The notes beneath the pieces were generated by a model that did no database searches, had not been told where the DNA came from, and saw nothing but the letters and a program-made list of their open reading frames with translations. Shown here one piece after another: positions 6,068 to 55,139 of a stretch of 64,000 bases of DNA. The position numbers and the translations under genes were made by a program. The DNA lies in the NCBI GenBank assembly GCA_006226495.1, contig SBGU01000031.1, forward strand, positions 1 to 64,000, read 5' to 3'. Position 1 is the first letter of the stretch, and each line of letters starts with the position of its first letter. Source of the DNA: Alphaproteobacteria bacterium. GTDB lineage: Bacteria; Pseudomonadota; Alphaproteobacteria; Sphingomonadales; Kordiimonadaceae.

Positions 6068-8338
6068 ATGACCCAATCCGCAATTCTCGGCTTCCCGCGC
6101 ATCGGCGCGCGGCGCGAGCTGAAACACGCCATTGAAGCCTATTGGAAAGGTGGCAGCGACGCCAATATCCTGCAGGAAACTGCCGCTGGGCTGCGGGCCA
6201 GGCACTGGCGATTGCAGCAAGCCGCCGGAATCGACGTAATCTCCTCGAACGACTTTTCGCTCTATGACCAGATGCTGGACATGACCGCGGCCTTCGGTGC
6301 CGTACCGCCCCGCTTCGGCCATGCCGGCGGGCCGGTGCCACTGGACACCTATTTTGCCATGGCGCGCGGCACTTCAGCGGCGCCAGCAATGGAAATGACC
6401 AAATGGTTCGACACCAATTACCATTATATCGTGCCCGAATTTCACGCGGGCCAGACCTTCGACCTTGTGGGCCAGAAGGCGGTGGACGAGTTTCTGGAAG
6501 CCAGGGCGCTGGGTATCCATACCCGCCCGGTGATCATCGGTCCCGTGACCTACCTCAGCCTCGGCAAAGCCAAGGATGAGGGGCTGGCGCCCCTCTCGCT
6601 CCTGAACGCCATCCTGCCGGCCTATGTCGAGCTGCTGAGGCGCCTCAAAACCGCGGGCGCAGACTGGGTGCAGATCGACGAACCGGTGCTGGCGCTTGAT
6701 CTCGACAAAGCCCAGCGGAAAGCCTTCAAACAGGCCTACCTGACATTTGCGCACGCGGGCCTTGAAATCCTGCTCGCCAACTATTTTGGTGGCCTTGGCG
6801 ACAATATCGCGCTCGTGACCAGCCTGCCGGTCGCGGGCCTGCATCTTGATCTGGTGCGCGGGCAACCGGACCTTGAACAGGTGCTGGCCCTGTGGCCGGC
6901 GGACAGGGTTCTGTCGCTGGGCATTGTCGATGGCCGCAACATCTGGCGCACCGACCTTGAAGCCGCCCACACGCTTCTTGATCAGGTCGCCACACGCCGG
7001 GGCACCAGCCGGCTTCAGGTCGCCAGCAGTTGCAGCCTGTTGCATGCGCCGGTCGACCTCGAGCTTGAAACCACGCTGGACGACGAACTGAAAAGCTGGC
7101 TCGCCTTCGCGCGGCAGAAGCTGGATGAAATTGCGGCCCTGGCCACGGCACTGGACCATGGCCCAGATGCCGCGAGCCAGGCCTTCGTCGCAAGCCGTAC
7201 CGCCAAACAGGCCCGCACCGCATCAGCCCGTGTTCACAACCCGGCAGTTGCCGCGCGTCTGGCGGCTGTCCGCCCGGAAGACAGCGACCGGACCAGCGCG
7301 GCCGATGTCAGGCGTATCCTGCAGCGTGCGGCCCTGCCCCTGCCCGCCTTCCCGACCACGACCATCGGGTCGTTCCCGCAGACGGCTGAGGTCCGGCAGG
7401 CGCGGGCCGCCAACCGGCGCGGCGATCTGGACGATGCGTCCTACGACCGGTTCCTGAAGACCGCGACCGAACAGGCCGTGCGCATCCAGGAACAGCTTGG
7501 CCTTGATGTGCTGGTGCATGGCGAATTTGAACGCAACGACATGGTCGAATATTTCGGGGAACAGCTTGAAGGTTTTGCCTTCACCAGGGGCGGCTGGGTG
7601 CAGTCCTATGGCTCGCGCTGTGTGAAACCACCGGTCATTTTTGGCGATGTCAGCCGCCCGGCAGCCATGACTGTCGCCTGGTCACAATATGCACAGAGCC
7701 TGACCGACAGCCCGGTCAAGGGCATGCTGACCGGACCAGTGACCATCCTGCAATGGTCGTTTGTGCGCGACGACCAGCCGCGCGACGACACCTGCCGCCA
7801 GATCGCCCTCGCGATCCGGGACGAGGTGGCCGACCTTGAAGCCGCCGGCATCCGGCTGATCCAGATCGACGAACCCGCGCTTCGGGAGGGGCTGCCGCTC
7901 CGGCATGCCGACTGGCAGGCGTATCTGGACTGGGCAGTGGACTGTTTCCGCCTGTCGGCTGGCGTTGCGGCGGACACAACCCAGATCCACACCCATATGT
8001 GTTATGCCGAATTCGGCGATATCATGCCCGCCATCGCGGCTCTGGATGCAGACGTGATTTCCATTGAAACCTCGCGCTCCGATATGGAACTTCTGGATGC
8101 CTTCCGGGATTTCCGCTACCCGAACGACATCGGCCCCGGCGTCTATGATATCCATGCCCCGCGCCGGCCGGACGTGGCGGCCATGCGCCAACTTCTGGAA
8201 AAGGCAACCGAACGGTTGCCGGCAGAACGCCTGTGGGTGAACCCGGACTGCGGCCTGAAAACCCGCACCTGGGACGAGGTGATACCGGCCCTGGAGAATA
8301 TGGTCGCCGCAGCCCGCGCCGCCCGGGCGCAAAGCTAG
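6068..8338 (+). CDS. metE: Cobalamin-independent methionine synthase MetE
   Basis: 756 residues, the normal MetE length. It transfers the methyl group of 5-methyl-tetrahydropteroyl-polyglutamate to homocysteine in the cytosol, the last step of methionine synthesis. The N-terminal barrel begins [18 protein letters not shown]. The C-terminal catalytic barrel has [10 protein letters not shown], a [10 protein letters not shown] segment, the zinc ligands in [10 protein letters not shown] and a final NPDCGLKTR cysteine. GAGGA precedes the ATG at 6068. The gene is controlled by the cobalamin riboswitch upstream and possibly by the repeat at 5625. It appears monocistronic: a hairpin follows and the next gene is convergent. 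Confidence 0.97.
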
Positions 8339-46981: not shown

Positions 46982-49729
46982 ATGACCGCAGACATTCTTG
47001 GCACAGCCAACAGCGATACCCTGGAAGGCACCAGCAGCAATCAGGATATCGATGGCCTGGGTGGCAACGACGTCATCTATGGCCGCTTCGCCTATAATGA
47101 TATCGACGGCGGCGACGGCAATGACCACCTGTTCAGCGGCGGCGCCTACAATGTCGTGCATGGCGGCAATGGCAACGACAACCTGTCAGCGGGGTCCGGC
47201 ACTTCGTTCTATGAAAGCCTGTACGGTGATGCCGGCAACGACATCCTGTATGGATATTATGGCGGCGACTATCTGGACGGCGGCGACGGCAACGACATCA
47301 TCCTGTCGAACCATGGGCACGATACCCTGGTCGGCGGCGCAGGCGACGACACATTGAATGTCTATCAAAGCAGCCTCGTAGTGCATACCGTTTCGACCGG
47401 CCCCACCGTTGTAAGCGGCGGCGACGGCGCGGATGTATTTGTCAATTCCTTCGCAACCGATGTCACGGTCACCGATTTCGAGGTCGGGGTCGATCTCATC
47501 GACCTGGAACGCGATCACATCGACTATGCAGATGTCAGCATTAGCGACAATGGCAACAATGATGCCGTTATCAGCTATAACGGCTACAGCATGACCCTGA
47601 CCGGCGTTTCCGCGAGCGAGCTTGACAGCAGCAGCTTCACGCACCTGCCGACCGTCGGCGGCAATACACTGACGGCCACGGAAGACACGACCTATGTCTT
47701 TTCGGTCGCGGATTTCAATGTCGCCGACGCTGACGGCGACACGCTCGATTATATCACCGTCACCAGCCTGCCGGACAACGGCACCCTTTATTATTATGAC
47801 GCGGCCTATACGGCCGGGACCCCGGTATCCACGGGCAGCCTGGCGGGCGGCTATCTGACATTTGTGCCGGATTCAAACGAGAACGGCGAAGACTATGCCA
47901 CCCTGTCCGTGACCGTCGCGGTCGACCGCGACATCCAGAACCCCGGCTATGGCAGCGGCACCATCACCATCGATGTTGCGGCTGCGCCAGAACGCCCGTC
48001 CATATCGGGGACCGCCAACAGTGACACGCTGGAGGCAACAGCCAGCGGTCAGGATATCAACGGCCTTGGCAGCGATGACGTCATTTACAGCCGCTTCAGC
48101 GATACCTGGCTCGATGGCGGCGACGGCAGCGACACGCTTATCGCCAGCGGCGGCTCCAATGTCCTGCAGGGCGGCGATGGCAACGACTTTATGCGGTCGA
48201 GCGGGTACCATGACACGTTGGAAGGCGGTGACGGAGACGACACAATTTCGGTTGTCTTTCGATCGGCTGAAGGCAATTCGGATGGCACCGACACTGTTCT
48301 TACCGGCGGCAATGGCAACGACCTGTTCTTGTCGGACTTTCATTGGGATGCGACGATTTCCGACTTTGAGACCGGCAGCGACCGGATCGACCTGATGGGG
48401 TCGGAAATTCTTTTTGACGAGATAGCAATATCCGAGAATGGCTCAGGCGATGCCGTCATTTCCTATGGCGGACATTCATTGACCCTCGAGGGTGTTTCCG
48501 CCGATGCGCTGGACAGCAGCGACTTTGTGATCCCCGAATCCCTGGCCGGCACAACGGTAACGACTGCGGAAGACGCGAGCTATACCTTCACCCTCGATGA
48601 TATCGCCGACGGGGTCACCCACACCGACGGCGATACGATCTATTATGTTGTCACAGTGATGCCGGAGCACGGCACCTTGCTTCTGAACGGCGAGACCAAT
48701 GTCCTTGGTGTCGCTTTCACGGCAGAAACCATAAGCAATAGCGGCCTGACTTTCACGCCTGCCGAAAATGAAAATGGGGATGCATACGCCAGCTTCGACA
48801 TCGAACTTCTTGTCGTGGGATCTGGCACTGAATGGAGCAAGGGCACCATCACCATCGATGTCGGCGCGGTGAACGACGCGCCGTCCGGTCTGACCCTCAG
48901 CGGCAGCACGGTCAGTGAAAATGACGAAGGGGCGGTGATCGGCAGCCTGTCCGTCACCGATATCGACAGCAGCAGTTTCACATACAGCGTCAATGACAGC
49001 CGCTTTGTCGTCGAGGACGGCGTCCTGCGCCTCGCCGACGGGGTCGCGCTTGATTATGAAGACGCCGCGTCTGCATCCTTCCGTATCACGGTCACCGATA
49101 GCGGCGGCCTGAACTATATCAAGAATGTCACCATCAGTGTCACCGATGTGTTGGAACAGGAAACCCTGCAGGGCAGCGATGGCGACGACACCCTGGCTGC
49201 CACGGATGCAGGCGACCAGGTATGGGCACGGGGCGGCAACGACAGCCTTACAGGGGGCAGTGGCGACGACACACTGGGTGGTGGCGCCGGCAACGACGAC
49301 ATCGAGGGCGGGGCCGGGGCCGACCGGTTGTTTGGCGCCGCCGGCAATGACACCGTGTCGGGCGGCGCGGGCGACGATACCCTGTTTGGCGGCGCGGGCG
49401 ATGACACCGTTTCAGGCGGTACCGGTGACGACCTGATCTATGCCGGCGCGGGCGACGATATACTGGCGGGCGGCGCCGGGACAGACGCCTTCTATTTTGG
49501 CGCCACGTCGGGCAACGACACGGTCAGCGATTTCGACACCGGCGAGGATGTCCTGAACCTGGCCTTCTCCGGCGCAGGTTTCGCGACCCTGGCCGCGGTT
49601 ACAGCGGCGGCCAGCGAAACCAGCCAGGACGGCGAGGACGGTTTGCTGATCGATCTTGGCGGCGGCCAGAGCGTATTCCTCGTGGGTCTCGGCCTCGACG
49701 ACCTCGCAGGCATGGATATCCTGCTTTAG
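46982..49729 (+). CDS. Modular RTX/cadherin-like secreted protein
   Basis: 915 residues, acidic, with no N-terminal signal, so it is probably exported by type I secretion via its C-terminus. It is built of two similar modules. Each has calcium-binding nonapeptide repeats (GGDGNDHLF, GGAGDDTLN type), a short domain ending in NDAVISYNGYSMTL or GDAVISYGGHSLTL, and a cadherin/Ig-like domain with PDNGTLYY or PEHGTLLL. A further cadherin-like domain (GLTLSGSTVSENDEGAVIGSLSVTD) precedes a dense C-terminal RTX block (GGAGDDTLFGGAGDDTVSGG) and a final FDTGEDVLNL stretch. It is likely a calcium-folded adhesin or matrix protein. No ABC exporter genes are nearby. Confidence 0.88.
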   Translation: MTADILGTANSDTLEGTSSNQDIDGLGGNDVIYGRFAYNDIDGGDGNDHLFSGGAYNVVHGGNGNDNLSAGSGTSFYESLYGDAGNDILYGYYGGDYLDGGDGNDIILSNHGHDTLVGGAGDDTLNVYQSSLVVHTVSTGPTVVSGGDGADVFVNSFATDVTVTDFEVGVDLIDLERDHIDYADVSISDNGNNDAVISYNGYSMTLTGVSASELDSSSFTHLPTVGGNTLTATEDTTYVFSVADFNVADADGDTLDYITVTSLPDNGTLYYYDAAYTAGTPVSTGSLAGGYLTFVPDSNENGEDYATLSVTVAVDRDIQNPGYGSGTITIDVAAAPERPSISGTANSDTLEATASGQDINGLGSDDVIYSRFSDTWLDGGDGSDTLIASGGSNVLQGGDGNDFMRSSGYHDTLEGGDGDDTISVVFRSAEGNSDGTDTVLTGGNGNDLFLSDFHWDATISDFETGSDRIDLMGSEILFDEIAISENGSGDAVISYGGHSLTLEGVSADALDSSDFVIPESLAGTTVTTAEDASYTFTLDDIADGVTHTDGDTIYYVVTVMPEHGTLLLNGETNVLGVAFTAETISNSGLTFTPAENENGDAYASFDIELLVVGSGTEWSKGTITIDVGAVNDAPSGLTLSGSTVSENDEGAVIGSLSVTDIDSSSFTYSVNDSRFVVEDGVLRLADGVALDYEDAASASFRITVTDSGGLNYIKNVTISVTDVLEQETLQGSDGDDTLAATDAGDQVWARGGNDSLTGGSGDDTLGGGAGNDDIEGGAGADRLFGAAGNDTVSGGAGDDTLFGGAGDDTVSGGTGDDLIYAGAGDDILAGGAGTDAFYFGATSGNDTVSDFDTGEDVLNLAFSGAGFATLAAVTAAASETSQDGEDGLLIDLGGGQSVFLVGLGLDDLAGMDILL

Positions 49730-54751: not shown

Positions 54752-54780
54752 TTGCCAAAAGTTGCACCTTGTTATATAAT
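54752..54780 (+). promoter_or_regulatory. Sigma-70-type promoter for the ubiquitin-like gene
   Basis: TTGCCA (54752-54757), a 17-bp spacer and TATAAT (54775-54780). It lies 33 bp upstream of the ATG at 54813. It is unusually close to consensus for this high-GC genome. Confidence 0.7.
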
Positions 54781-54812
54781 CACAATCATTATCAAACGAG
54801 CAGGAGGATAGA

Positions 54813-55139
54813 ATGCGCATGTCCCTGATGAGCAAAGCCGCTGTTGTTACCCTTGCCGGCCTGATGGCCGCCGTGCCCGCCTTCGCGGAAACCATCAAGG
54901 TTCGCGTCGGTGAAGACAGGATTGTCGAAATCAAGGACCTGCGCCTGCAGGCGCCCGTCGGTGCCAGCGTTTGCAGCCTCAAGGTAAAGGTTGCCAAGGC
55001 GCTGGACATGGACATGAAGGATTTCGACCTTGTCGACAATGGCGTGAAGCTGGACCGCGCGCGCAGCCTTGAGGACCATGGCATCCGCAATCTGTCGACC
55101 CTGGACATCCGGGCCGCCGAAAATTCCAAACAGTGCTAG
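54813..55139 (+). CDS. Exported ubiquitin-like small protein
   Basis: 108 residues with a strong ribosome site (AGGAGG). Residues 1-25 are a signal peptide ending AFA, so the protein is periplasmic or secreted. The mature part (about 27-101) reads like a beta-grasp/ubiquitin fold. The segment DLVDNGVKLDRARSLEDHGI and the following STLDI align without gaps to ubiquitin residues 43-69 with about ten identities (Leu, Gly, Leu, Arg, Leu, Asp, Ile, Ser-Thr-Leu). The preceding LKVKVAK helix matches the VKAKIQD helix. There is no C-terminal GG; it ends ENSKQC. Two cysteines (54 and 108) could form a disulfide. Function unknown; conjugation is unlikely. Confidence 0.72.
   Translation: MRMSLMSKAAVVTLAGLMAAVPAFAETIKVRVGEDRIVEIKDLRLQAPVGASVCSLKVKVAKALDMDMKDFDLVDNGVKLDRARSLEDHGIRNLSTLDIRAAENSKQC

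Follow-up and report, generated by a model that had tools for sequence, protein, structure and literature searches.

The stretch of DNA analysed here (the window: positions 1–64,000 of contig SBGU01000031.1, assembly GCA_006226495.1, from a marine Alphaproteobacteria bacterium of the Kordiimonadaceae) carries a gene for a small ubiquitin-like protein that is predicted to be exported. This protein is probably a helper of a phage-like element, acting in the cell envelope, because the gene of its relatives usually sits in a domesticated virus-like cluster beside a DNA-damage control site. Stated in full, we favour, with a probability of roughly 0.45, an exported, disulfide-locked and envelope-binding accessory of an SOS-linked element that resembles a gene transfer agent (GTA). 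We computed the fold, the cysteine pair, the range of the family, the gene context and the LexA-type boxes. The features of the gene itself are as follows.

54813..55139, + strand: gene for the predicted exported ubiquitin-like protein, 108 residues (open reading frame and translation; homologues in relatives)
54813..54887, + strand: Sec-type signal peptide, 25 residues, cut AFA|ET (by eye)
54888..55136, + strand: mature ubiquitin-fold (beta-grasp) domain, 83 residues (family profile and fold model)
54972..54974, + strand: codon of Cys54, the invariant cysteine at the start of the main helix (alignment and fold model)
55131..55136, + strand: codons of Gln107-Cys108, the invariant C-terminal QC (alignment)

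A previous, sequence-only reading of this DNA had described a 108-residue protein with a Sec signal, and we recover both in the open reading frame at 54813–55139 with its 25-residue signal. All signal peptides, in the window protein and its homologues, were read by eye; signal-like N termini are also seen in the aligned homologues, except in the truncated frame of genome G018. The gap-free alignment to ubiquitin that had been reported is likewise reproduced, as residues 45–99 align with ubiquitin 15–69 over equal lengths. Taken alone, the window sequence is a weak match to ubiquitin. It scores 16.8 bits (E 0.006) against the Pfam ubiquitin family PF00240, below the gathering cut-off of 25.4, and its single-sequence matches in PDB at 1e-8 are sums over nine tandem ubiquitins at ~3 bits each. 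Seven of the 10 relatives scanned with Pfam reach PF00240 at E <= 1 (best 9.4e-5), though none attains the cut-off, the best score being 22.6 bits. In the same scan L010 matches Ubiquitin_5 at 0.043 and, better, Phage_OMP at 1e-4, itself under its cut-off; L005 gave no ubiquitin-type match and L009 no match of any kind.

At the family level, sequence comparison indicates a likeness to ubiquitin that is more than chance. A family profile of 16 rows (15 distinct proteins) found 125 matches among PDB sequences at E <= 1, the best 60 of which are ubiquitin or ubiquitin-like-domain proteins by name. Its polyubiquitin matches are sums over repeats; against single-domain chains it reaches E 6.6e-5 for 2mlb (79 residues) and 3.2e-4 for 6kna (76 residues). 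The fold model has beta-grasp topology and superposes on ubiquitin. Profile and model thus agree on the beta-grasp domain proposed by the sequence-only reading, which had suggested structure prediction and a profile search as checks: the predicted fold is beta-grasp, and the profile search did not place the protein in an unrelated family, with the PF00240 score remaining below its cut-off. The fold is shared with ThiS/MoaD and BIL-type ubiquitin-like proteins, which are cytoplasmic and mostly end in GG. No PADLOC family matched any of the 16 rows at E <= 1.

The mature part of all 15 distinct proteins contains exactly two cysteines, spaced by 53–55 residues. The first marks the start of the main helix and the second lies within a Q-C motif, which stands at the very end in six of the 15 and is followed by 1–3 residues in nine. 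None of the 16 rows ends in GG, and the QC is invariant and comes last in the window protein, so that the absence of GG and the terminal Cys pointed out earlier both hold. The conserved pair is compatible with an internal Cys54-Cys108 disulfide that would tie the tail back. One could instead imagine a covalent modifier whose terminal Cys forms a mixed disulfide or thioester with its targets. The invariant QC, located at the chain end or close to it, would suit such a role, and recombinant BfUbb, a ubiquitin-like protein of Bacteroides fragilis, is described as becoming covalently joined to human E1 in non-reducing conditions (PMC3352274). However, the second Cys and the 53–55 residue spacing fit an internal disulfide better, and the residues that follow the Cys in nine copies also speak against it; we consider such a modifier highly improbable. 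Ubiquitin-type conjugation is not expected either, since the protein lacks the GG that it needs. Together, the signal peptide, the missing GG and the fixed cysteine pair point most likely to a disulfide-stabilised binding domain in the envelope.

The link to a phage-like element comes from the relatives. Thirteen of 14 genomes, as well as contig L032, carry the ubiquitin-like gene inside a tailed-phage structural cluster, in the order terminase, portal, prohead protease, a neighbour protein called c2 (encoded on the opposite strand), ubiquitin-like gene and capsid; TerL, portal, protease and capsid were named by Pfam and PHROGs for the G017 proteins. For G005, G018, G020, L032 and the window, automatic choice of reading frames picked antisense frames, and the gene was placed by separate searches. 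Kordiimonas aquimaris JCM 16665 is one of the strains that have a cluster copy. In G018 (L012/L024) the N-terminal part of the ubiquitin-like gene is broken and the domain is still conserved. The sequence-only reading missed the cluster with its LexA boxes because it is not visible from the window.

In 11 of the 13 genomes with a cluster copy, the capsid gene directly follows the ubiquitin-like gene; in G020 and G027 a long stretch separates the two. This position could suggest an assembly factor or a structural decoration of the particle head. Yet the signal peptides would take the protein out of the cytoplasm, where heads form, the particle genes of G012 and G016 are closely similar with and without the gene, and the window copy lies outside the cluster; we consider a head function most unlikely. 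The cluster of G017 continues with a tail tube protein, a Phage-tail_3 protein, an M15 peptidase and GTA_holin_3TM, and tblastn found relatives of the peptidase and the holin in nine of 11 genomes chosen for their assemblies. A signal-peptide-bearing protein that is LexA-linked in relatives and encoded by an element with these two lysis genes might regulate lysis or the particle's cell-wall hydrolase, in the manner of a periplasmic antiholin or lysozyme inhibitor. We regard such a regulator as unlikely, however, as the gene is ~15–17 kb from the lysis genes of the cluster and many elements lack it.

Capsid and portal genes were found in 24 and 26, respectively, of the 29 family genomes, mostly in single copy. 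Some are decayed: G010 has only part of the portal gene, that of G014 is split in two, and the capsid of G021 is partial with stops. In 10 of the 11 chosen genomes the cluster lies between the same helix-turn-helix (HTH) gene and the same 4'-phosphopantetheinyl-transferase-type (PPTase) gene, with HTH/DUF1376 on one side and PPTase/Kds-like genes on the other. A KdsA-like gene comes next in eight of the 11, and KdsC- and KdsB-like genes too in seven; Pfam names were obtained for these genes. For G027, no downstream markers were seen in the span fetched. Element sites include G000:C47, G017:C11 and G028:C1, as well as loci L038, L074-L076, L082 and others. In the window genome, this element sits on a different contig (C47) and lacks both the ubiquitin-like gene and c2.

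Judged by its genes, the cluster behaves as a vertically kept, GTA-like element. GTAs are described as vertically inherited (PMC10883770), and the cluster shares with RcGTA-type GTAs a vertically kept head-tail gene set with a GTA-type holin; in contrast to these, the lysis genes of the Kordiimonadaceae lie inside the same cluster. A ubiquitin-like domain encoded in a tailed-phage structural cluster is also known from TAPI, which is described as carrying a C-terminal Gly that is conserved and, beyond a Gly-rich linker, a second domain, with its gene flanked by TAPK (JAB and NlpC/P60) and TAPJ genes (PMC1779556). The Kordiimonadaceae gene differs in lying in the head region, with prohead protease, c2 and capsid rather than JAB/NlpC as neighbours, and its product consists of a signal peptide and a single 83-residue domain. 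We found no Cys-paired, signal-peptide-bearing ubiquitin-like family inside a GTA-like head module in the literature searched. With most subscription papers and all preprints outside that search, no paper named both gene transfer agent and Kordiimonas/Kordiimonadales, and none named both Kordiimonas and ubiquitin; three contain both gene transfer agent and ubiquitin-like, and their titles point to unrelated subjects.

The gene appears to travel in a cassette. As far as the protease, the clusters of G012 and G016 share 95.7% identity, and they share 92.6% from just before the capsid gene onward; the interval between (about 1.7 and 1.2 kb; L042 vs L077) gives no blastn match. In G012 this interval contains c2 and the ubiquitin-like gene, and in G016 a different c2 and no ubiquitin-like gene. 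The two genomes thus form a natural with/without pair for effects of the cassette on producers and recipients. Across 13 genomes (G018 and L032 left out), the median pairwise identity of the mature protein is 33%, against 71% for the capsid (78 pairs each); that of the portal is 74% (45 pairs). This cassette swap and the difference in identity indicate, at the sequence level, that the ubiquitin-like gene evolves fast or is swapped often, while one close pair (G005/G018) gives a sign of constraint.

The partner gene, c2, occurs in 16 of the 29 genomes, namely the 13 with a cluster-borne ubiquitin-like gene and G016, G006 and G024; G005, G018 and G020 have three copies each. Two cysteines are invariant in all 23 aligned c2 sequences, and an N-terminal hydrophobic stretch is present in 19 of 22 (simple threshold). 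The c2 model has a confidence (pLDDT) of 86.6, and its best structural match, a weak one, is the SecDF P1 domain. The c2 sequences (L036:2007-2699 and 22 more) form a fast-evolving family, with many copies at LexA-type boxes inside the cluster. Beside c2 genes, L036, L037, L044 and L032 carry extra stretches that resemble the C-terminal part of the prohead protease.

The nearest known kind of the Kordiimonadaceae family is BfUbb. According to its published descriptions, BfUbb has a signal sequence, is present in the culture supernatant, lacks GG and ends in Cys, and it acts in antagonism by inhibiting sister strains (PMC3352274, PMC5705921). The generalisation of the sequence-only reading that known bacterial ubiquitin-like proteins are cytoplasmic does not survive this precedent. 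BfUbb and the Kordiimonadaceae family both have a signal peptide (predicted in the latter), a ubiquitin fold (here compared with 8hm2), no GG and a Cys at or near the C terminus. They differ in that BfUbb is reported to be 63% identical to human ubiquitin, with inter-kingdom transfer suggested by its authors, whereas the Kordiimonadaceae family is about 15–21% identical to the ubiquitin chains listed here; this family is also set apart by another invariant Cys, where the helix starts, and by its tie to the GTA-like cluster. By analogy, the protein could be a secreted antibacterial toxin of the BfUbb type that binds an envelope target and inhibits close relatives, c2 being possibly the immunity protein in relatives. 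However, the window genome has the protein without c2, c2 is present in three genomes where the protein was not found, and the distance from ubiquitin is much larger than that of BfUbb. We hold a toxin to be unlikely, to the same degree as the lysis regulator.

An exact GAAC-N7-GAAC occurs within 320 nt upstream of 11 of the 14 cluster copies (13 genomes and L032), where shuffling gives an expectation of 0.003–0.017 for each. In terms of the direct repeat GTTC-N7-GTTC that marks the LexA regulon, these 11 copies carry it exactly, and the motif is the published alphaproteobacterial one for LexA (PMC3323433). Before recA, the motif is exact in eight of 27 loci and present with at most one mismatch in all 27; of up to 108 control windows, 10 contain it at this tolerance. 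In the cluster of the window genome itself, an exact LexA-type box (L075, 6426) is followed, where relatives have c2, by a 37-residue open reading frame (6521-6634) with one hydrophobic stretch, opposite to the head genes.

Several observations weigh against an accessory of an SOS-linked element. For the window protein, the element link is drawn from relatives, because the window copy lacks a LexA box, phage neighbours and c2: no LexA box was found within one mismatch in the 320 nt upstream, no phage genes among the six neighbours scanned with Pfam, and no match to c2 in the window genome. Only about half of the 26 portal-bearing genomes have a cluster-borne ubiquitin-like gene. The sites of G008 and G011 have one mismatch and carry little weight against the control background given above, and G003 has no LexA-type box within one mismatch upstream. 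Further c2 copies have boxes in front of them as well, so that the principal LexA target may be c2 rather than the ubiquitin-like gene. Finally, the sign of constraint on the protein, a ratio of non-synonymous to synonymous substitution rates (dN/dS) of about 0.16 over 75 codons for G005/G018, comes from a pair that includes the copy with the broken N-terminal part, and dS is saturated for G020/G027.

Even so, we still favour an envelope-acting accessory of the element. Here we infer the disulfide, the export, the SOS induction, the binding role and its target. The exported ubiquitin-fold domain, probably locked by Cys54-Cys108, would bind non-covalently, either in the periplasm or extracellularly. 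The family would represent a 'moron'-like accessory gene belonging to a GTA-like element that Kordiimonadaceae inherit vertically, housed between prohead protease and capsid in a swappable, SOS-linked cassette with the divergent, mostly membrane-anchored and weakly SecD-P1-like c2. Its most likely job would be to bind and restrain an envelope component upon induction of the element. T4 Spackle and RI act from the periplasm, and the protein would exert a restraint like theirs. Candidate targets are enzymes of lysis, the wall-cutting activity of the particle itself, or a receptor used by particles or phages, and inhibition of siblings in the manner of BfUbb may be a further option. It is tempting, if doubtful, to suggest that the element has a new envelope module, induced by SOS, in which the ubiquitin-fold protein is paired with a SecD-P1 mimic anchored in the membrane. 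The module would rework or guard the envelope of the producer (lysis, particle uptake, phage receptors), with the ubiquitin-fold half, in the window species, freed from SOS control. If so, this would be, to our knowledge, the first ubiquitin-fold protein that serves a domesticated phage from outside the cytoplasm; we know of one secreted ubiquitin in bacteria, BfUbb. The present family is much more diverged, has predicted signal peptides and is tied to a GTA-like element and DNA-damage control, and with it the reach of ubiquitin-fold proteins would come to include the envelope biology of domesticated phages.

The copy in the window is a detached member of the family with its own strong promoter, and its protein would be made independently of the element. 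The protein is closest to that of G001 (40%), whereas the genome is closest to G011 when portals are compared (83%) and to G007 when capsids are (75%); the ubiquitin-like proteins of these two are 25% and 28% identical to that of the window. This copy is therefore unlikely to be the vertically expected one merely moved elsewhere. The following signals precede the gene.

54752..54780, + strand: sigma-70-type promoter TTGCCA-17-TATAAT (11 of 12 consensus positions)
54775..54793, + strand: Fur-box-like sequence overlapping the -10 element (three mismatches to a 19-mer consensus)
54802..54807, + strand: Shine-Dalgarno AGGAGG, 5 nt before ATG (read from sequence)

The near-consensus promoter and the very strong ribosome site noted previously are both borne out. 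Two promoter-like sites occur in a stretch of 801 bases, the second on the - strand with 9 of 12 positions, for a shuffle mean of 0.0. The Fur-box-like stretch, at 16 of 19 positions, raises the idea that Fur has taken control of the window copy for a new use in iron-related physiology, with no remaining tie to the element, which would agree with its detached position. However, it is the sole site within three mismatches in the 4.3 Mb genome, so that there is no support for a Fur regulon. A relaxed motif gives four places including the window site, one of them after a TonB-receptor-like open reading frame (by eye). We regard the stretch as a candidate only, not as shown to work, and re-use under Fur as very unlikely.

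Both genes that flank the ubiquitin-like gene are on the opposite strand, which makes it look like a single-gene unit. Among the six neighbours scanned, Pfam recognised two beta-lactamase-family proteins on one side; on the other are a LytTR protein, one protein without a match, an Hsp70-type protein and an RDD protein that also matches DnaJ weakly. Elsewhere in the window, an open reading frame of 915 residues (46982–49729) is rich in RTX-like glycine/aspartate repeats, as judged by eye.
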